This document shows, one piece after another, positions 22,809 through 39,689 of a DNA stretch of 39,689 nucleotides (position 1 is the first letter of the stretch; each line of letters starts with the position of its first letter). This DNA comes from Gammaproteobacteria bacterium. Its GTDB lineage: Bacteria; Pseudomonadota; Gammaproteobacteria; Beggiatoales; Beggiatoaceae. A program made the position numbers and the translations under genes. The notes under the pieces were generated by a model. That model ran no database searches, was not told where the DNA came from, and was given only the letters and a program-made list of their open reading frames with translations. The stretch lies in contig QNES01000017.1 of assembly GCA_003645255.1 (NCBI GenBank), positions 1-39,689 of the forward strand, written 5' to 3'.

Positions 22809-23906
22809 ATGAAAACCTTAGCAAAAGAAAATTCGCATACTCGCTTGCCCATTCATTTGATAACCGGTTTTTTGGGTAGTGGTAAAACCACGTTGCTTAA
22901 TCAATTGGTACATCAACCAGGGATGCAAAATACTGTAGTGATTGTTAATGAATTTGGCGAAATTAGTGTGGATCATTTATTGGTTAAAGCAACGACTGAA
23001 GACATGATGGTATTGGAAGGGGGGTGCGTATGTTGTTCGGTACGTTTTGACTTACTCAATACCTTAGAAGACTTATTTCATAAACGAGCGCGTCAAGAAA
23101 TCTCTGCTTTTGAACAAATATTGATAGAAACCACCGGACTGGCAGATCCTGCTCCCATTTTGCGCACCTTGATAAATGACCCGTTTATAGTTGCCCATTA
23201 TCGTTTAGAGATCGTTGTAACTACCGTTGATGTTTTATATGGTGCACAACAACTGGATGAATATGATGAATCCGTTAAACAAGCTGCTTTGGCAAATCAC
23301 TTGATCTTGACGAAAATTGATCTGATTGATGCAAAAATGCTTGAAAATTTCAAACATCGTTTACGCCGTCTTAATCCCACTGCTATTCTACATGAAGTTA
23401 ATCTTAATCAACAAACTATTGAAGCTGCTACTTTATTTAATACCAGCCATTACCATCTTCAAACTCAAAAACTTGATATAGAACGTTGGCTACAAGCTGA
23501 TGTTTACCTTAAACCTCAAAAAACAACTCAATTTCCTATCTCCCACCAACATGATGCTTATATCAAAACTTTCTGTATTGAACACACTGAACCACTACAT
23601 TGGCTCACCTTAGAACGGTGGATACAACAATTAACTCGTTTGCGTGGTAAAGATTTACTTAGAGTCAAAGGTATCGCTTATACTTATGAAACTGATTTAC
23701 CTGTCGTCATCCAGGGTGTTCAACACATTTTTCAGCCTCCTAGCACTTTAGATGCTTGGCCCACCTCACAACGGCGTTCACAGATTGTCTTTATTACTCG
23801 CAATCTTGAAAAAAAGATCGTTGAACAAGTTCTTTACGCCCTGATTGATAGTCAAACGCCAGCCGAAGTTTGTCAGGCTGCCTTAATTTTATTAGGGCAA
23901 AATTAA
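22809..23906 (+). CDS. CobW/G3E-family GTPase (COG0523-type metal chaperone)
   Basis: A 365-residue P-loop GTPase with Walker A GFLGSGKTT (20-28), the metal-binding C73-V-C75-C76 in GGCVCCSV, the EFGEISVDH loop, ETTGLADP and the TKID guanine motif. A CobW C-terminal domain follows (about 260-350). This family loads metals, often zinc, into target enzymes using GTP hydrolysis. The MBL hydrolase gene just upstream (6-nt gap) is a plausible metal client. Its stop overlaps by four bases the stop of the convergent DUF302 gene. Confidence 0.94.
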   Translation: MKTLAKENSHTRLPIHLITGFLGSGKTTLLNQLVHQPGMQNTVVIVNEFGEISVDHLLVKATTEDMMVLEGGCVCCSVRFDLLNTLEDLFHKRARQEISAFEQILIETTGLADPAPILRTLINDPFIVAHYRLEIVVTTVDVLYGAQQLDEYDESVKQAALANHLILTKIDLIDAKMLENFKHRLRRLNPTAILHEVNLNQQTIEAATLFNTSHYHLQTQKLDIERWLQADVYLKPQKTTQFPISHQHDAYIKTFCIEHTEPLHWLTLERWIQQLTRLRGKDLLRVKGIAYTYETDLPVVIQGVQHIFQPPSTLDAWPTSQRRSQIVFITRNLEKKIVEQVLYALIDSQTPAEVCQAALILLGQN

Positions 23907-24823
23907 AACTCCCCATTAGCTCCTGCTTTCATCATTTCCATCAAAATATCACGAATCTTGATTGCCTCCTGTTTCAAGTCTGGAGGTAAATGACCTAAAA
24001 TGATGAGTAGATCCAAATTCATCATTACAAACCAGCCTTGCCCCTGTTGATTTTCAACCAAAATAATATGACAAGGCATATAAGCAGCAAAGCCTATATA
24101 ATGCTCAAGCATTTTTTGAGCAACTCTACCATCACAAAATTGGAAATATTCGATGCGTTTAATATGAGTAAGTTCTAATTTTGAGTACTCATTAATCAAA
24201 ATTTTATGACCCACTAATTTCATATTCAAATCATTTGCACGCCGTTTTAAGGAGTCAACCGCATCATCTATAGATACGTCTTCAGCAATCGGCGTTTTAA
24301 CGGCTATTTTCAGGCTGCTTAGATGGGACAAAGCGGTGGCTGTGAGAACTGATGAACCACCAATAACTTTCATCAAATTGCCACAAACGCGATCAACCAA
24401 GCTTCGCAAATCTGCTGGCAACTGACTCGTTAAAAGTGCCGGATCGCTCATTACGAACCATCCTTTACCTTGTTTATCTTCAACTAAAGCAATTCGGCAG
24501 GGCAAAAATGCAGCATAGTCCATGTTGTATTCAATCAATGCCATAGCGACTTTGGCATCGCAAAATTGGAAACACTCGGTACGCCTAATATTTGATAAGC
24601 CCAGTGCTTCATATTCTTGAGTTAAAGGACTATAGCCAATCTGTGAAATATTCAACATGCTGGCACGTTGTTTGAGTTCCTTAATGGCATCGTCCATGGA
24701 CTGATTAACAATCGGTACTTTGATAATAATCATATTAATATCAAAACCTGGCTGCTTATGTTCTGCTAGTCCATTGGTTATCAACAATAGAGATAATACA
24801 ATAGTGATTAAACGTGGTATCAT
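23903..24823 (-). CDS. Exported tandem DUF302 protein
   Basis: From the chosen start the 306-residue product begins with a signal peptide (MIPRLITIVLSLLLITNGLA). Two DUF302 domains follow (about 35-140 and 178-285), each with MDDAI or VDDAV, IRRTECFQFCDAKVA or IKRIEYFQFCDGRVA, a PCRIALVEDKQGKGWFVM or PCHIILVENQQGQGWFVM strand, and a L(L)xxL end. The frame continues upstream to 24913, but AAGGAAA lies 9 nt before the ATG at 24823 and the extra residues are not signal-like. DUF302 function is unknown. The paired Cys in FQFCD and LPC/MPC could form disulfides in the periplasm. Confidence 0.88.
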   Translation of the reverse strand: MIPRLITIVLSLLLITNGLAEHKQPGFDINMIIIKVPIVNQSMDDAIKELKQRASMLNISQIGYSPLTQEYEALGLSNIRRTECFQFCDAKVAMALIEYNMDYAAFLPCRIALVEDKQGKGWFVMSDPALLTSQLPADLRSLVDRVCGNLMKVIGGSSVLTATALSHLSSLKIAVKTPIAEDVSIDDAVDSLKRRANDLNMKLVGHKILINEYSKLELTHIKRIEYFQFCDGRVAQKMLEHYIGFAAYMPCHIILVENQQGQGWFVMMNLDLLIILGHLPPDLKQEAIKIRDILMEMMKAGANGEF

Positions 24824-25278
24824 GGCGATTTTTTCCTTATTCTTGATATTCAAATTAGCAATTTCTAATAAAATAATATATACCTTATGACAATCTATTT
24901 TGAACAATGACAATCAAGGGTTGGGAGTGATGTCTGAAAGTTATTTTAAGGTATATTAGAATATTATTATATTAACAAATTCTAATTTTATTATCCAGTT
25001 TTCGCTATAGACGTTCAGAAAAATAATTTCACACAATAAACCTGTCAGGTATTCAAATTGTTTTTTGAATTTATCAATATATTATTTATTTTTTTGTATA
25101 ATTAATAATCTTTGTATTGGACATTTTATTTAACTTCTTTATTTAACTAAATTTTAATTGTTTGAATCAGAATTAACAAAATTTTAGAATTATTCAGAAT
25201 AAACCCATTGTAGGGGCAGATCTACGTGTCTGCCCTTTGTGAATTTATTTTTCTGAACATCTATAGAAAAAAACAAAA
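24824..25278. other. Gene-free gap with two repeat copies
   Basis: About 455 bases of AT-rich spacer between divergent genes. It includes an AAACCTGTCAGGT copy (25038-25052) and a TGTAGGGGCAGATCTACGTG to GCCCT copy (25209-25236). The latter lies about 40 nt upstream of the SPFH gene. No promoter could be fixed. Confidence 0.5.
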
Positions 25279-26956: not shown

Positions 26957-27526
26957 TTATGTTGGAGTTTCAGCCGGTTGAGCGGTTTTAGGCGTGACAA
27001 ATTCTTTACCCTTTTCAAAGAGGGCTTTAAATTTCTCCCGAACTTTATCGGGATCAAAGCTAAGAAATGTGCCACCTGATTCAAAGTGTTCAATAAATAC
27101 CTTGCCAACAGCATAAGTGCCAGCACCACCCAGAGCAGCCATACTTACCATACCTGACACTTGTCCAACCACGGGAATAACCTTGACAAGACTCGCAAGG
27201 GGAGCTGCAGCTGTAACGGGGAGTGCACCACCCAATAAAGAAGCTATTAATGGTTTCACAATATCCTTTGAAAATTCAACGTCATACTGCGTAGCGAGAC
27301 TATGCAACATTTGAAGTTGGACGCTGGTCAAAGCAGCGAGATCCAGCAAGGGTATCGGTACTAAACCGACTGCTATTGAACCCACAGCATATTTATTGAC
27401 TGTGTTGTGAGCATGGGTAAATCTTTCAACTCTTTCGTCAATAGCCTGCTCCATAGTTGTTGAAGTAGGATTGTCGGTTGCAACGTTGGCTTTATTATGT
27501 TCGTTGTTAGTGTCAGTCGTTTCCAT
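26957..27526 (-). CDS. DUF697-family membrane protein
   Basis: A 189-residue protein with a polar N-terminus rich in Thr and Asn (1-30), then helical hydrophobic stretches (about 45-65, 87-110, 110-135) typical of DUF697: VGSIAVGLVPIPLLDLAALT, LASLLGGALPVTAAAPL and the glycine-rich VGQVSGMVSMAALGGAGTYA. A charged C-terminal tail follows. DUF697 partners often sit with GTPases (YcjX/YcjF type). AGAGG lies before the ATG. It is convergent with the SPFH gene, so joint function is only suggested. The membrane location is inferred from hydrophobicity. Confidence 0.85.
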   Translation of the reverse strand: METTDTNNEHNKANVATDNPTSTTMEQAIDERVERFTHAHNTVNKYAVGSIAVGLVPIPLLDLAALTSVQLQMLHSLATQYDVEFSKDIVKPLIASLLGGALPVTAAAPLASLVKVIPVVGQVSGMVSMAALGGAGTYAVGKVFIEHFESGGTFLSFDPDKVREKFKALFEKGKEFVTPKTAQPAETPT

Positions 27527-27691: not shown

Positions 27692-29950
27692 TTAACCTTT
27701 AAGAATAATTATTGTACTCACAAAAATAATAATCATTAAGGGATAAAATACCCTGCTAAAGTATTTTATGCGAGCAATCCAAAGCTGGCTACCCTCAGTT
27801 TTTTCACTACCCTTAAGCCCTAATGACAATTCTACCACAATAATAAATATTGCCAAGAAGTAAATCATATAGAAAAAATATTCCATCAAAAAAATGTAAT
27901 CAATTTTAGGCATTTCTGAAGACATTTTTAAATGAAACAATGAGCTTGCCACTATCATATTAACACCGATACCCACGGCGGTTTTATAATCACCAATAAA
28001 AAATGCAAGATAACCAAGCATAACTATAAACAGGGTTGGCAATAAATTTTTTAAGATGAAGTTAAAAACGTGCCGCTCAATTTCGACTGTCGCGTTGAAT
28101 TGAGAATATTCAATTCGTTGTTGTGCGCCCACCAGTTCAAGCAATCCCAAGGTTGAATCATTCGTTTTGGTGTTTTGAAAAAATGACATATGGTTAACTT
28201 TCCAACCCCCAACTGAAAAGAATTTCTTTGTTTCAGAAGAATTTGCACCTTGCGCTTCGTTCTGACTTAGGTTCATACCTCGTAAATCAGGCACATAGAT
28301 TAAGTTATTTCGGGTCAATGTATTATGCCGAAAATAAATTGGCAAAACTTGTTTATCTAATGGATAATCGCGAAAATCCAAATCGACTTTAAATTGCGTT
28401 TTGATCCGATAAGTTTTCGTTGTCACACCCTGTTCAATAGATGATTCCTGTTCAAGAACCTGTGTTAATAAATTACTATCATCCGGGTCATAAATATTAA
28501 CAAAATTAATATTCTTGTCATTAAACTGACTTTTAAAGCGGAACCAAAGATAAAAATCGGCGGTAAAAGTCGAACTGCCAGCATTGAGTTCACTAACATC
28601 GTTAAAATCAATACCAACATAAACTACCTGCGCTCGGCTCATAAACTTACCTTTGAAATGAATAATTTCATTATCCAGCACTTTTTGTAACAGATTATCT
28701 ATATTCTGCAAATAGCTCAAAGGTTGGTATTGTTCACTGGCGACAAGGCCTATACCACTCTTATAAATACCGATGGGTATTGATTTAATGGCATCACCAT
28801 TTTTATCAAAGTAAATATCACCTGTGACTCCTTCTACGGCATTGGAGATATTAGATAATTGCCATAAGCTATCTTTTACCGCCTCACGCTTTTCTTTAAG
28901 ACTAATCGTCTTTCCCTTCGCTTTTCCCTTTTCCAAGGTTTTTTTGATAGCTTCAACAGCCACCATCGCAGCATCATAGTACATAGCTGAAGTTGCGATG
29001 GATTCTTTTGGGTATTTTTTATCAAAAAATTCACGCTGAAAGTCCTGAGCACGTTTACCCGCAATATCAATGAGAAAGGGTGATGCTAGATAAATACCAT
29101 CAGTATAGTAACCGGGGTAGTTTTTTTCTTGTGGATATTGCTCCTTGAAAGTTTGTATAAAATGACTGCTCGCCAACGCGTCTGCTCCAATCATGGGCAC
29201 TTTGCGTTCTAAGTATCGCAATCTGGTGATAACTTTTATGGCTTCGGTTGAATGCGTTGCCAAAAACAACATACCGTATTCATCTTCTCGCTCCAAGATA
29301 TTAACCATTTTGGTTAACTGCTTATCAAAGCTTGTGCTATCATTGAAACTCCACTGATGTTCAATTTTCAGCTGCATCCCTTTTGCTGCTTGTATAAATG
29401 TTGCAGCCAGTGTTTTTCCATAAGGATCTTCGTCAAAAAGAACATAAGCCTTTTTATGATCCAGAACCTTATGTGTATAGTGTGCGAGTAATGCACCTTG
29501 ATCACTATTATTGAAAATGACGCGGAAATACCAATCGTTATTTTCCGTAATTTCGTTAGCGGTTGCACTACCTGTGATAGCCGCTATGCCCTGTTGTTGG
29601 TAAATGGGAGCCGCTGCCAGGGAACTCCCACTGGTATAATGTCCAATAACTGCCAGGGCATCACTATTCACAATTTCCAATGCCCTTTCTTTCGCCTTAT
29701 TCGCTTCATTTTCATCATCAAATTGAAGCAATTTAACCTGTTGACCGGCAATACCGCCCTGCCGGTTCACATGATCAAGATACAACTGAGCACCTTGGAG
29801 CATTGCCTCACCGTTGCTTTTTTTCATGGGTCCTGCTATAGCGATATAAAGCGTGTCATCACTCAAAAAAACATTTTTTCCAATACTCAATAATATAACG
29901 AAAAATAGAGCAACAAAAAAGAATAATCCAAATTTGGTTTTCAAAGTCAT
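27692..29950 (-). CDS. Pentameric ligand-gated ion channel with N-terminal periplasmic-binding-protein domain
   Basis: The 752-residue product joins a type I periplasmic-binding fold to a Cys-loop-family channel. After an anchor or signal helix (about 8-24), residues about 33-410 match branched-chain amino-acid binding proteins (IAIAGPMKKSNG, GHYTSGSS, DEDPYGKT, SAMYYDAAMVAVEA). Residues about 430-625 form the beta-sandwich ligand domain with the channel hallmark LDFRDYPLDKQVL (about 524-536); there are no Cys-loop cysteines. Four membrane helices follow: TM1 LKNLLPTLFIVMLG with its proline, TM2 about 656-676, TM3 about 685-711, TM4 about 734-750. It aligns with GLIC from Y-K to MPKIDY without gaps. 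I chose the ATG at 29950; a GTG at 29962 is also in frame. The gene lies downstream of a binding-protein lipoprotein gene. Confidence 0.9.
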   Translation of the reverse strand: MTLKTKFGLFFFVALFFVILLSIGKNVFLSDDTLYIAIAGPMKKSNGEAMLQGAQLYLDHVNRQGGIAGQQVKLLQFDDENEANKAKERALEIVNSDALAVIGHYTSGSSLAAAPIYQQQGIAAITGSATANEITENNDWYFRVIFNNSDQGALLAHYTHKVLDHKKAYVLFDEDPYGKTLAATFIQAAKGMQLKIEHQWSFNDSTSFDKQLTKMVNILEREDEYGMLFLATHSTEAIKVITRLRYLERKVPMIGADALASSHFIQTFKEQYPQEKNYPGYYTDGIYLASPFLIDIAGKRAQDFQREFFDKKYPKESIATSAMYYDAAMVAVEAIKKTLEKGKAKGKTISLKEKREAVKDSLWQLSNISNAVEGVTGDIYFDKNGDAIKSIPIGIYKSGIGLVASEQYQPLSYLQNIDNLLQKVLDNEIIHFKGKFMSRAQVVYVGIDFNDVSELNAGSSTFTADFYLWFRFKSQFNDKNINFVNIYDPDDSNLLTQVLEQESSIEQGVTTKTYRIKTQFKVDLDFRDYPLDKQVLPIYFRHNTLTRNNLIYVPDLRGMNLSQNEAQGANSSETKKFFSVGGWKVNHMSFFQNTKTNDSTLGLLELVGAQQRIEYSQFNATVEIERHVFNFILKNLLPTLFIVMLGYLAFFIGDYKTAVGIGVNMIVASSLFHLKMSSEMPKIDYIFLMEYFFYMIYFLAIFIIVVELSLGLKGSEKTEGSQLWIARIKYFSRVFYPLMIIIFVSTIIILKG

Positions 29951-29995: not shown

Positions 29996-30034
29996 TAACT
30001 ACTCAGGGCTTGCGCGTGGGATTGCCCCTACAAT
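29996..30034. repeat. Composite repeat TAACTACTCAGGGCTTGCGC to GCCCCTACAAT
   Basis: A joined copy of the TGAGTAGTTA and TGTAGGGGC families, matching the reverse of 11729-11770. It sits between the lipoprotein gene and the channel gene. Confidence 0.55.
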
Positions 30035-31764
30035 TAATCTTTTAATGACCACCTACTGATGTGTTGCCCACCAAATGCGATATGATACCAATCTTTAACC
30101 CGAGGTTTTACCAAAAATTTGGCATTATTAAAGTAGAGAGGAATAATAGCCACCTCTTCTTCCGTTAATATTTGTTCAGCACGGTGGTTGAATTCCTTTC
30201 TATGTTGTGCTTTCCCTCCAAATTGCCCATCATCTATCATCTTATCAAACAATTCACTGTTTTTTCCACTCAGCCAATTAAAACCAGTACTCGAATGAAA
30301 AGCACCTAACCAATTAATCGCGTCTGGATAATCAACACACACTGAATAGCGAAAAAGATGTGGTGAGGTTGCAGGTTGAAGTGGGATAATAGCATCATTG
30401 TAACGCTTCCAATCAATAGCCTGTATCTCAATGTCAATATTCAAATAATGTTTCAGCAGCGTTTTGATTCCTTCAGCAATCTCTTCATGAGTCTCGCTCG
30501 TATTATGCATCAAAACGAGTTTAGGAAAATTTTTACCATCGGGATAGCCTGCCTCCGCCAACCATTCCTTCGCTTGTTTGGGATTAAATGGAATACCAAC
30601 TTGCTCTTCCTTGGAGTTGACAGAACCAAAACTTAAAGGATGAGCTAGGGTTGTCGCTAAAAAATGACTTCCCTTAATAACAACGTCAATTAAAATCTGT
30701 TTATCAACAGCGGCAGAAATCGCCTTGCGAACCAACAAATTATCAGTCGGAGCTCGTTGAGTATTGAATCCGTACCATTCCGTGCAAGCTTGCTGTACTA
30801 CCTTTATATCCTTAGACAATGTGGGATTAGTTTGAATACGGGGAATTTCCGCCTGTGGCAATTTTAAATACACTTCCCCACCCATAATATCCAGCTCATT
30901 ATTTTCATACATGGCTAAGCCAATTGAACTTTCTGGAATAACATAGTAATGCACCTCATGAATATTAACCTGAGCGGCTTCATAATAATCAGGATTTTTG
31001 GTCAAAACGATTTTATTGCCTTTATCCCATTCAGTTAGCCTATAAGAACCGTTAGTTTGAATGTGCTGCGGTTCGGTCCATTGCTTTCCATATTTTTCAA
31101 TAATATGACGTGGCAATGGCCAATAAACTTCGCCGCTCACCATGGCGGGAAAATAGGCTTCTGCAAACTCAAGTATAAATTCAACCGTGTAATCGTCAAT
31201 TGCCCGGACACCTAAAGATGATCGTTCCATTTTGCCCTGAACGATAGCATCATAATTTTTTATGAGATAAAATTGGGCTTTCTCATTTTCAACTAAATTG
31301 CGTTGCATGGTCCAAACAATATCATGGGCTGTCACCGGTTTACCATCTGTCCATTTGACATCATGACGGAGGTTGAAAGTATAAACAGTACCGTCTTCAC
31401 TGACTTGCCAATCAGTTGACAGTTCAGGCACCACTTGATAAGGAACAGTGCCATTATCCGATTCCATTTCATAAAGTGCTAACTGACTATCAGTATCCGT
31501 TTTTTGATCTGCGGATTTCGGGGCAATTTCAAAATCTGTTAAGCTTAGAAACAGTTGTTCAACCAATTCACTTTGAACCACTTCAGAAACTAACCCTGGA
31601 TCCAGGATACCCACATTACCATCCAAAGGTATCCGAATAACCCCAGGGGGTATTTCAGCCTTTTTTTGTTGAAGGGTACCATCATGATTTTGCTGTTCAC
31701 AGCCGCTGATTAAAACCATGAAACACCCTAGGATTAAAACTATCCATTTGAAAAATATAGACAT
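30034..31764 (-). CDS. ABC-type oligopeptide substrate-binding lipoprotein (SBP_bac_5)
   Basis: The 576-residue product begins with a lipoprotein signal peptide ending in the lipobox LISGC, then an SBP_bac_5 fold (about 60-570) with VPELSTDWQVSEDGTVYTFN, the family DVKWTDGKPVTAHDIVWT and TNGSYRLTEWDKGNKI. The SWxxxxL-type ends of DppA/OppA are in the last third. I chose the ATG at 31764 because GAGGT lies 8 nt before it; the upstream ATG at 31779 would place that signal inside the gene. No ABC permease or ATPase gene is near, which is unusual. It ends about 83 nt before the channel gene start, so it is a candidate partner. Peptide or nickel-type ligand not determinable. Confidence 0.92.
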   Translation of the reverse strand: MSIFFKWIVLILGCFMVLISGCEQQNHDGTLQQKKAEIPPGVIRIPLDGNVGILDPGLVSEVVQSELVEQLFLSLTDFEIAPKSADQKTDTDSQLALYEMESDNGTVPYQVVPELSTDWQVSEDGTVYTFNLRHDVKWTDGKPVTAHDIVWTMQRNLVENEKAQFYLIKNYDAIVQGKMERSSLGVRAIDDYTVEFILEFAEAYFPAMVSGEVYWPLPRHIIEKYGKQWTEPQHIQTNGSYRLTEWDKGNKIVLTKNPDYYEAAQVNIHEVHYYVIPESSIGLAMYENNELDIMGGEVYLKLPQAEIPRIQTNPTLSKDIKVVQQACTEWYGFNTQRAPTDNLLVRKAISAAVDKQILIDVVIKGSHFLATTLAHPLSFGSVNSKEEQVGIPFNPKQAKEWLAEAGYPDGKNFPKLVLMHNTSETHEEIAEGIKTLLKHYLNIDIEIQAIDWKRYNDAIIPLQPATSPHLFRYSVCVDYPDAINWLGAFHSSTGFNWLSGKNSELFDKMIDDGQFGGKAQHRKEFNHRAEQILTEEEVAIIPLYFNNAKFLVKPRVKDWYHIAFGGQHISRWSLKD

Positions 31765-32108
31765 TTTTATAAACCTCATTTTGATCTTTACTATGAACCT
31801 ATCCCACTATTCGTTTTTGAGCTTAGAAATCCGATTTTTGGTCAAAAAACCCATTATTTTTATTCATTATTCTGCATTTTTGAATAGGGCGGATAGGTTC
31901 ATAGTAATTAAATTAATGTTAGATGTCAATTCATTAATTCTGAACTATCCACCATTAATTAATTATTTTTTACCCATTTTCCATAAAAGTTTCCGGTATA
32001 TCACGATCTGCCATCTAATCACCTGCAAAAGGTAAATAACGAAATGCCCTACGGTTGCACTGTCCGTTACAAAGAGAATGTTTTCGGATGGATACTAATT
32101 AACTTGTA
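31765..32108. other. Gap with a perfect 15-bp inverted repeat
   Basis: ACTATGAACCTATCC (31790-31804) and GGATAGGTTCATAGT (31891-31905) bound a 116-bp segment, with a few more matching bases inside (CTATTC/GAATAG). It looks like a short MITE-type element. The rest, up to the hldD stop at 32109, is AT-rich with no gene. Confidence 0.6.
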
Positions 32109-38476: not shown

Positions 38477-39689
38477 ATGCTTTTGACTAGAGTCGAACGA
38501 CATATTGTCGATGTGAATCAGCCATTAATTGATTTGTCTTATGCCTCAAAAAATCTCTATAATTGCGCCACCTTTATTATGAGGCAAAATTTTATAAAAA
38601 ACCATAAGATTATCTATTATGGGACAATGGATAAGATTACAAAACGTGATTATCCAGAGGTTTATAAAGGTCTACCAGCCCAATCTTCGCAACAAACATT
38701 AAGATTGGTTGAAAAGAACTGGAAGTCTTTTTTTAAATCAAATCAGGAATATAAGAAGAATCCGGATAAATTCAAGGGCAGACCTAAACTACCCAAATAT
38801 AAGGATAAAGAAAAAGGATTGAATATAGTTATCTTTACTAATCAACAATGTAAATTTAGAGATAATCAAATCCATTTTCCCAAAAAGGCGGGATTGTCAG
38901 CATTAAATACAACCGTTGATAATCTTCAACAAGTGCGTATTATTCCAAAATACCAGCATTTTGTGATTGAAGTCGTTTATAAAAAAGAGGTATCAAATGA
39001 GAAATTAACCCATGATAATGTTTTAGGTATTGACCTTGGATTAAATAACTTAGCCACATTAGCCTCAAATCAACCAGATGTAAATCCTATGTTGATAAAT
39101 GGTAAGCCATTGAAATCCATCAATCAATACTTTAACAAGAAAAAAGCCAAACTGATGTCGTTTATCGGTGATAAAGGGACAAGTTATTCAATTGGCCGAT
39201 TATCAAAAAAACGTCATCAAAAAATTGATGATTACCTGCATAAAGCGAGTAGAAACATTATTGATTATGCAGTAGAAACTAACAGTGGTCTAATTATTGT
39301 TGGGGAAAATAAGCACTGGAAACAGGAAATCAATATCGGTAAAAAGAACAATCAAAATTTTGTTTCAATTCCTTACGACAAATTCAAGGCAATGATTGAA
39401 TATAAAGCCGAAGAATTGGGTATTGATGTTGTTTTTACGGAAGAATCCTATACTTCCAAATCAAGTCACTTAGACAATGACCCATTGCCTGTTTATAAAA
39501 AGGGTGAATCACATAACTTTACGGGTAAACGTGTTAATAGAGGTTTGTATCAATGGTCTAAGGGTGTAATTAATGCCGATTTGAATGGTGCGATAGGTAT
39601 CATTAAAAAAGTAGTTCCAGAAGCTCTTGATTCACTTATAGAGCTACGGAATAGAGGTGCTGGGTTCGCACCATTTAAGGTTGTGAATA
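38477..39689 (+). CDS. tnpB: IS200/IS605-type TnpB (OrfB) protein, cut by the window end
   Basis: At least 404 codons are open, with no stop before the window edge. The protein starts with the helical N-terminal domain (LSYASKNLYNCATFIMRQNF) and has the RuvC catalytic triad D186 (GIDLGLNNL), E277 (VGENKHW) and D368 (NADLNGA). The usual four-cysteine zinc finger between E277 and D368 is replaced by a cysteine-free stretch (SYTSKSSHLDNDPLPVYKKG, then FTGKRVNRGLYQW), as in one TnpB subgroup. The ATG at 38477 is the first in frame. There is no tnpA beside it. TnpB is an RNA-guided nuclease in characterised elements; the guide RNA would lie past the window end, near the 3' end of this gene. Confidence 0.93.
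   Translation, partial: MLLTRVERHIVDVNQPLIDLSYASKNLYNCATFIMRQNFIKNHKIIYYGTMDKITKRDYPEVYKGLPAQSSQQTLRLVEKNWKSFFKSNQEYKKNPDKFKGRPKLPKYKDKEKGLNIVIFTNQQCKFRDNQIHFPKKAGLSALNTTVDNLQQVRIIPKYQHFVIEVVYKKEVSNEKLTHDNVLGIDLGLNNLATLASNQPDVNPMLINGKPLKSINQYFNKKKAKLMSFIGDKGTSYSIGRLSKKRHQKIDDYLHKASRNIIDYAVETNSGLIIVGENKHWKQEINIGKKNNQNFVSIPYDKFKAMIEYKAEELGIDVVFTEESYTSKSSHLDNDPLPVYKKGESHNFTGKRVNRGLYQWSKGVINADLNGAIGIIKKVVPEALDSLIELRNRGAGFAPFKVVN

Follow-up and report, generated by a model that had tools for sequence, protein, structure and literature searches.

A predicted two-domain sensor on two unrelated channel pores in a member of the Beggiatoaceae and its relatives

Introduction

Is the sensor of a ligand-gated channel tied to the pore on which it is usually found, or can it be carried to another one? 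The question is raised by a gene on contig QNES01000017.1 (assembly GCA_003645255.1) of a gammaproteobacterium of the family Beggiatoaceae, in which one reading frame joins a type I periplasmic-binding protein domain (PBP) to the predicted extracellular domain (ECD) and four-helix membrane domain of a pentameric ligand-gated ion channel (pLGIC, Pro-loop superfamily). The stretch of DNA analysed, here called the window, comprises 39,689 nucleotides, and all coordinates of the gene and its surroundings are positions in it. The pairing as such has been known since 2004, and an earlier sequence-only reading of this DNA was right in believing that surveys had noted it. Tasneem et al. (2004, PMC549065) described ART-LGICs of M. 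magnetotacticum and B. japonicum that carry an N-terminal PBP-I domain, and also PBP-II genes in the neighbourhoods of these channels. What looks unreported, as far as our search reached, is a sensor shared by two unrelated pores, of which one retains the coupling residues while the other has them rewritten.

Results

One sensor unit, two pore classes

Matches at E 0.001 or better were found in 51 of 95 related genomes searched, the weak ones covering the PBP region only; an ECD profile of the window's own type matched in 24 of 369 genomes of the class and an MscS-type ECD profile in 43 of 398 genomes of the phylum, short stand-alone frames being counted in both. The family sample consists of 98 fetched stretches (handles such as L022), a part of all matches from three genome searches, and six exact duplicates were removed from the counts. 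It holds 118 distinct frames with both PBP and ECD: 39, the window gene included, follow its PBP-ECD-four-helix plan (window-type), nine have a C-terminal SBP_bac_1 domain after the fourth membrane helix (SBP_bac_1-type), 64 continue into the pore of MscS (MscS-type) and six stayed unassigned, among them fragments, a broken copy and a NACHT-like form. Window-type and SBP_bac_1-type frames are referred to jointly as pLGIC-type (n = 48). Among the frames fetched, both pore classes occur in 14 of 51 genomes, with up to 10 family frames per genome, and the window's own genome has two window-type frames, three of MscS-type and one broken and MscS-like. Judged by sequence, the PBP-ECD unit thus sits on an MscS pore not only in the window's genome but also in further groups of its phylum.

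Over the matched PBP and ECD, identity to the window protein is 33-34% for the three MscS-type proteins encoded in its genome, and the best BLAST segments of all 64 lie between 21 and 37%. Pfam names MS_channel domains in the MscS-type frames scanned (MS_channel_2nd at E 7.1e-17 in one relative) and cNMP_binding in some. A PDB search with one of the proteins found E. coli MscS at E 1.7e-15, the match extending to pore and beta domain, and all 28 sequences listed come from entries of seven chains each. Homology to the pore helix and upper vestibule domain is the mark of the MscS superfamily (PMC4560390), and by their sequences these relatives are members of it. Five hydrophobic segments follow the ECD in 49 of 65 MscS-type frames (L088, introduced below, included) and four in 14; with five, the cyclic-nucleotide domain would lie in the cytoplasm, and its binding cassette is kept in 31 of 34 such domains. 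A cytoplasmic cyclic-nucleotide domain is also the layout of the bCNG channels, from which, as from MscS itself, the relatives differ by the added periplasmic PBP-ECD sensor and by the five segments that follow it.

That the middle domain of these proteins is a pLGIC-type ECD is supported by profile comparison. Along its full length, the MscS-type ECD profile matches both the window-type ECDs (hhalign probability 100, 31% identity) and the ECDs of five short pLGIC-like frames (alignment A6; probability 99.0, E 2.6e-18, score 118). Controls scored at most 19.6 with 20 column-shuffled profiles, 15.0 with a reversed one and at most 22.3 with four unrelated domains, and a match by chance or composition was rejected on these scores. 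Since the five short frames had been detected with profiles A1 or A2, they do not form an independent sample; one of them, L115, a plain pLGIC found with the MscS-type profile (E 2.3e-13 for one genome, 398 having been searched), matches the structures of ELIC and the GABA-A receptor, is the sole one of the five that was compared with the PDB, and is also the only one in which Pfam names a pLGIC domain at E 0.01. Taken alone, the MscS-type ECD (28-row profile A1) retrieves nothing from the PDB up to E 1, and the Pfam table of its 28 members contains no pLGIC models, so that its identity rests on the window-type ECDs and the short bacterial frames as bridges.

The two pore classes part at three residues, which we have grouped in this analysis as coupling residues and scored in an ECD-only alignment: the Pro-loop proline, the Pro-loop aspartate and the arginine before the first membrane helix (M1). 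The proline is the single absolutely conserved residue of the superfamily (Jaiteh et al. 2016, PMC4795631); mutation of the aspartate abolishes activation in both ELIC and GLIC, and mutation of the arginine abolishes it in ELIC, the corresponding GLIC mutant not being expressed (PMC4778918). All three stand together in 38 of 39 window-type and 9/9 SBP_bac_1-type frames (47/48), and in 0/64 MscS-type frames, of which 49 have none, 14 have one and one has two. Residue by residue, the proline is present in 48/48 pLGIC-type frames (39/39 and 9/9), the aspartate (D532 of the window protein) in 47/48, with 38/39 in the window-type, and the arginine (R626) in 48/48, with 39/39. An alignment-free count of the motif [YFHW]PxD in the ECD agrees, with 38/39, 9/9 and 3/64. 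The core of the domain is nearly invariant in the MscS-type: W469, N485 and D555 are each found in all 64 frames, R471 and G558 each in 63. Core kept and coupling residues changed is the pattern to be expected if the ECD had been re-coupled to a foreign pore. With the complete coupling set in none of the 64 and a pore of the MscS kind, the MscS-type proteins are therefore not pLGICs, although their ECD is of the pLGIC type.

A quick tree of 115 rows places 62 of its 63 MscS-type rows, and three unassigned rows with them, on the same side of a branch with SH-aLRT support of 98; the exception is L107. One or a few pore switches would explain this pattern, whose direction cannot be read from the tree, the root having been placed for drawing only.

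The MscS form also exists in a cultured organism. Plasmid ABSP7_p1 of Azospirillum brasilense Sp7 codes for a protein of the PBP-ECD-MscS plan, in which Peripla_BP_6 and MS_channel_2nd both score above cutoff and the family ECD model matches at E 3e-39; the core ECD residues are kept and a proline stands at the Pro-loop position, with Gly in place of the Asp and Pro in place of the Arg. Nine of the 583 plasmid records with any match to an MscS-type query cover at least 80% of it, all of them Azospirillum. A protein of Azospirillum sp. B510 annotated as 'ABC transporter substrate-binding protein' has MscS and cyclic-nucleotide domains and a partial ECD match (E 6e-20). None of the 325 plasmid records with a match to the window protein covers 80% of it, and no relative was confirmed in viral contigs, which were scanned twice.

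Several variants deserve mention. MscS-type genes stand in tandem at L031:1082-7574, in the window's genome, and at 12 other loci; 13 of the 15 same-strand neighbouring pairs consist of a copy without and then a copy with the cyclic-nucleotide domain, always in that order, and a hetero-oligomer is possible. The MscS relative L088:1931-4249 (+) has the ECD directly on an MscS pore and cyclic-nucleotide domain, with none of the three coupling residues and no PBP domain found, and L086:1808-5953 (+) is an MscS-type frame of 1382 residues, lengthened at the N-terminus by about 250 residues of unassigned kind. The broken MscS-like copy of the window's genome, L033:1970-3799 (-), stops within the ECD, with an in-frame TGA in the match. 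In L054:2023-5394 (-), PBP and ECD are followed by one or two hydrophobic segments (by eye) and a NACHT-like ATPase stretch (P-loop by eye; Pfam AAA_22 at E 6.8e-4, below cutoff). L022:1981-5544 (+) and eight similar frames are the SBP_bac_1-type, with a sugar-type binding protein that would sit in the periplasm, since four hydrophobic segments follow the ECD in 8/9. A 659-residue frame of the window's genome, L089:2019-3995 (-), with a dCache sensor and a later, weak ECD match (E 7.4e-4), is possibly of the Cache-pLGIC type of Tasneem et al.

The window gene and its predicted channel

The frame runs on the minus strand, the sequence-only reading having given no strand, from an ATG at 29950 to a stop codon at 27692-27694; it is a single intact one of 752 codons, the length stated in that reading, and an alternative in-frame GTG four codons upstream would give 756 residues. 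An artefact of assembly or a frameshift, which that reading had named as a possible refutation, is refuted by the intact frame, by a relative in a metagenome-assembled genome (MAG) of Desulfatirhabdium (36% identity in the best segment, residues 29-708), and by the 39 distinct frames of the same plan, which include other genera and two frames of the Desulfatirhabdium MAG; we found nothing in favour of such an error, and the relatives exclude chance as well. The two Desulfatirhabdium paralogues are tandem copies, preceded by a fusion that joins Peripla_BP_6 to SBP_bac_5. The frame with PBP and pLGIC halves is confirmed, and the earlier interpretation of both halves is supported by sequence comparison, as described below. 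Its features are collected in Table 1; the N-terminal helix is predicted to be a signal or an anchor.

Table 1 Features of the gene and its immediate neighbours in the window
Feature	Residues	Position	Strand	Basis
PBP-pLGIC gene P0001	752 plus stop codon	27692..29950	minus	open reading frame and translation
N-terminal hydrophobic helix	about 6-28	29867..29935	minus	hydropathy; helix 4-28 in AlphaFold2 (AF2) model
Type I periplasmic-binding domain (PBP)	39-388	28787..29836	minus	Pfam, LivJ alignment, conservation counts
pLGIC extracellular domain (ECD)	430-626	28073..28663	minus	PDB profile search, hhalign
Pro loop LDFRDYPLDKQVL with P530 and D532	524-536	28343..28381	minus	alignment, conservation
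Pre-M1 arginine R626	626	28073..28075	minus	Arg in 48/48 pLGIC-type frames
Four-helix membrane domain M1-M4	627-751	27698..28072	minus	alignment; four helices in both low-confidence models
Pore helix M2	656-675	27926..27985	minus	anchored on H673
SBP_bac_5 (OppA/DppA-like) gene, 83 bases upstream		30034..31779	minus	Pfam E 3.5e-75
DUF697 gene, 165 bases downstream		26957..27526	minus	Pfam; possible partner (weak)

The second half of the protein was expected to show the extracellular and four-helix plan of a pLGIC with the hallmark motif and a proline in M1, and all of this was found: the PDB sequence match is GLIC (E about 1e-11), which covers residues about 481-742, the motif LDFRDYPLDKQVL starts at residue 524 and the proline is P638. 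A profile of 26 family ECDs (24 from window-type or SBP_bac_1-type relatives or the window protein itself, two from L001) retrieves GLIC from the PDB at E 5e-6 and aligns with the ECDs of the five short pLGIC-like frames at hhalign probability 99.6, E 2e-23. The protein contains no cysteine and is therefore a Cys-less 'Pro-loop' receptor. A fold search had been suggested earlier as a check: with the whole AF2 model, Foldseek lists LivJ-type proteins first and DeCLIC at ranks 36 and 47, and with residues 425-752 it lists GLIC first and pLGICs in all 50 matches listed, although at TM-scores of only about 0.24-0.32 and on poor models, so that these matches are supportive only. Our hydropathy script recognised just three of the four membrane helices in 30 of 39 window-type frames, among them the window protein, M2 falling under its threshold. 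Pfam Neur_chan_LBD has no hits in the window's genome, but none either in 14 of 14 control genomes, and this negative is hence uninformative. Overall, the product is predicted to be a ligand-gated ion channel of the pLGIC superfamily.

Anchored on H673, the M2 of the window protein has K at -2', A at 0', N at 6' and V at 9'. Basic residues occupy 0' in 25 of 35 anchored window-type frames, and an acid stands at -2' or -1' in just 4/35, in contrast to 7/9 SBP_bac_1-type frames and also to GLIC, which carries a Glu at the pore mouth. The contrast between the two types hints at different ion selectivity; since a basic 0' residue is common across pLGICs (79%; PMC4795631), we make no claim on selectivity from M2.

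For the first half, where a type I binding fold had been proposed at about 33-410, Peripla_BP_6 matches residues 39-388 at E 7.7e-35 (121.6 bits, curated cutoff 31.7), and the PDB sequence matches are Leu/Ile/Val-binding proteins. The pocket of LivJ is lined by S79, T102, Y150, E226 and Y202. In the alignment, the first four correspond in the window protein to S107, T130, Y177 and D257, the last being Asp where LivJ has Glu, and Y202 to H233; within the 39 window-type frames the Ser is kept in 37, the Thr in 35, the Tyr in 32 and the acid in 34 (Asp) plus 3 (Glu). The clamshell is probably one for an alpha-amino acid. In the MscS-type, the D257 position is Asp in 14/64 and Ser in 30/64, and the ligand there probably differs for this reason.

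Neighbouring genes

The SBP_bac_5 gene upstream is a possible co-transcribed partner (the OppA model matches it at E 2.9e-69, below its cutoff), and it looks like an orphan, since Pfam names no transporter permease among 13 further genes of the stretch 17450 to 37648. Within 1,000 bases, an SBP_bac_5 gene accompanies 26 of the 39 window-type frames (25 upstream, one downstream) but none of the 64 MscS-type and nine SBP_bac_1-type frames, at least 600 bases of upstream sequence being available for 63/64 and 7/9 of these; in L001, SBP_bac_5 belongs to a PBP fusion. A peptide-type binding protein beside the channel, or a sugar-type one fused to it, suggests a second periplasmic input. The DUF697 gene downstream is a weak candidate for a conserved partner: one relative, L021, carries the domain at its N-terminus, and it was not found in the other loci examined. 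Elsewhere in the window are a gene for a protein with a repeated DUF302 domain (23903-24913, minus strand) and one for a TnpB-family RNA-guided endonuclease (38477-39688, plus strand).

Discussion

How the protein might work

We consider it fairly probable that the window protein is an amino-acid-gated pLGIC whose PBP-ECD sensor is portable between unrelated pores; its gating, ligand and stoichiometry we infer from sequence. The outer clamshell stacked on the Cys-loop-type ECD would form a two-domain periplasmic sensor, in which closure on an amino acid would shift the ECD, and the Pro loop (P530, D532) and R626 would then act on the M2-M3 loop to open a homopentameric pore. The SBP_bac_5 protein may provide a second, peptide-reading input. 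The MscS-type proteins would be chemically gated MscS channels, with the ECD driving the pore through a different interface. As to the history, the odds seem even that the sensor moved between pLGIC and MscS pores and that the MscS forms are ligand-gated, with an ECD that works without the usual coupling set and is either heptameric or accommodates a 5-to-7 mismatch, and with cyclic nucleotides as a second, cytoplasmic input.

A number of points weigh against the reading of an amino-acid-gated pLGIC with a portable sensor. Both Pfam channel models stay under their curated cutoffs for the window protein (Neur_chan_LBD, residues 506-599, E 7.9e-4, 19.4 bits against 26; Neur_chan_memb, residues 636-706, E 2.2e-3, 18.7 bits against 28.1). 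L115, however, also stays under the Neur_chan_LBD cutoff (23.1 against 26) despite its structural matches, so that these models are too insensitive to exclude pLGIC membership. The AF2 models, built from a three-sequence alignment, are poor (mean pLDDT 56.5 and 50.3). With His at the position of LivJ Tyr202, ligands other than branched-chain amino acids are conceivable. Single coupling residues survive in the MscS-type (Pro in 8/64, Asp in 5/64, Arg in 3/64), and, MscS being heptameric and pLGICs pentameric, the MscS fusions pose an unexplained problem of symmetry. As to the second input, 13 of 39 window-type frames have no SBP_bac_5 gene within 1,000 bases (L049 has one about 1.4 kb upstream), and a lipobox is found in just 5 of the 15 SBP_bac_5 frames that are complete at the 5' end.

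The same evidence bears on other explanations. The PBP could merely modulate assembly, desensitisation or sensitivity, with the agonist binding at the ECD subunit interfaces, in the manner of the amino-terminal domain of ionotropic glutamate receptors. The extra domains of DeCLIC do influence its gating kinetics, and in AMPA and NMDA receptors ligand binding and allosteric action are both possible for the N-terminal domains (PMC9897478, PMC12664993); moreover, L088 indicates that the ECD can occur independently of the PBP. We nevertheless hold this to be rather unlikely, in view of the amino-acid pocket kept in most window-type frames and of the joint presence of PBP and ECD in both pore classes. 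Quite improbable, to our mind, is a chemoreceptor or scaffold that conducts no ions and signals through the SBP partner or other proteins: no electrophysiology of the window protein turned up, and L054 does place PBP and ECD on an ATPase stretch instead of a recognised pore, but a scaffold would not obviously need the coupling residues and the M2-like helix that the pLGIC-type frames have kept.

For the MscS fusions it could be argued that the ECD is a spacer or an oligomerisation collar and that the pores stay ordinary tension valves, in keeping with the complete coupling set being present in no MscS-type frame and with the frequent Ser at the D257 position. A mere collar would sit uneasily with the nearly invariant ECD core and the retained clamshell, and the binding cassettes kept in the cyclic-nucleotide domains suggest integration of signals; we regard this explanation as possible, if doubtful, and prefer that of chemically gated MscS channels.

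Relation to known systems

The ART-LGICs of Tasneem et al. share with the window protein the order of PBP-I domain, ligand-binding domain and four membrane helices as well as the neighbouring PBP-II genes, and the window gene now appears as a member of an expanded family, with up to the 10 frames per genome mentioned above. The available text of that paper (PMC549065) does not contain the word MscS and does not name a form with C-terminal SBP_bac_1 or a NACHT-like one, both of which occur here. For the MscS subfamilies, ligand-binding domains and large extracellular loops are mentioned, a pLGIC ECD not, in the available text of PMC4560390, and among the matches listed, the titles and the beginnings of abstracts in the open-licence literature, subscription papers being mostly outside it, describe no pLGIC ECD on an MscS pore. 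DeCLIC likewise is a pLGIC with an extra N-terminal periplasmic domain, which consists of two jelly-roll lobes and not of a binding-protein clamshell (PMC9897478). GLIC and ELIC share the ECD, the Pro loop, the pre-M1 Arg and the four helices with the window protein, GLIC being the nearest solved channel by sequence, and both lack the PBP domain. The animal ionotropic glutamate receptors, which are tetrameric, also place a type I binding fold outside an ion channel. Their pore is an unrelated one and interrupts a second binding domain, of type II (PMC549065).

Conclusions

Some MscS pores, which are regarded as pressure valves, may be chemical receptors, and the annotation 'ABC transporter substrate-binding protein' seems to conceal a channel-type membrane protein in at least one case, that of Azospirillum sp. 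B510. How an ECD of the neurotransmitter-receptor type signals to its pore to open is a long-standing question, for which a natural domain swap is apparently present in this family; comparing the sensor on its usual pore, where the coupling residues are kept, with the sensor on a foreign pore, where the core is kept and the coupling rewritten, could separate what the domain needs for sensing from what it needs for coupling.

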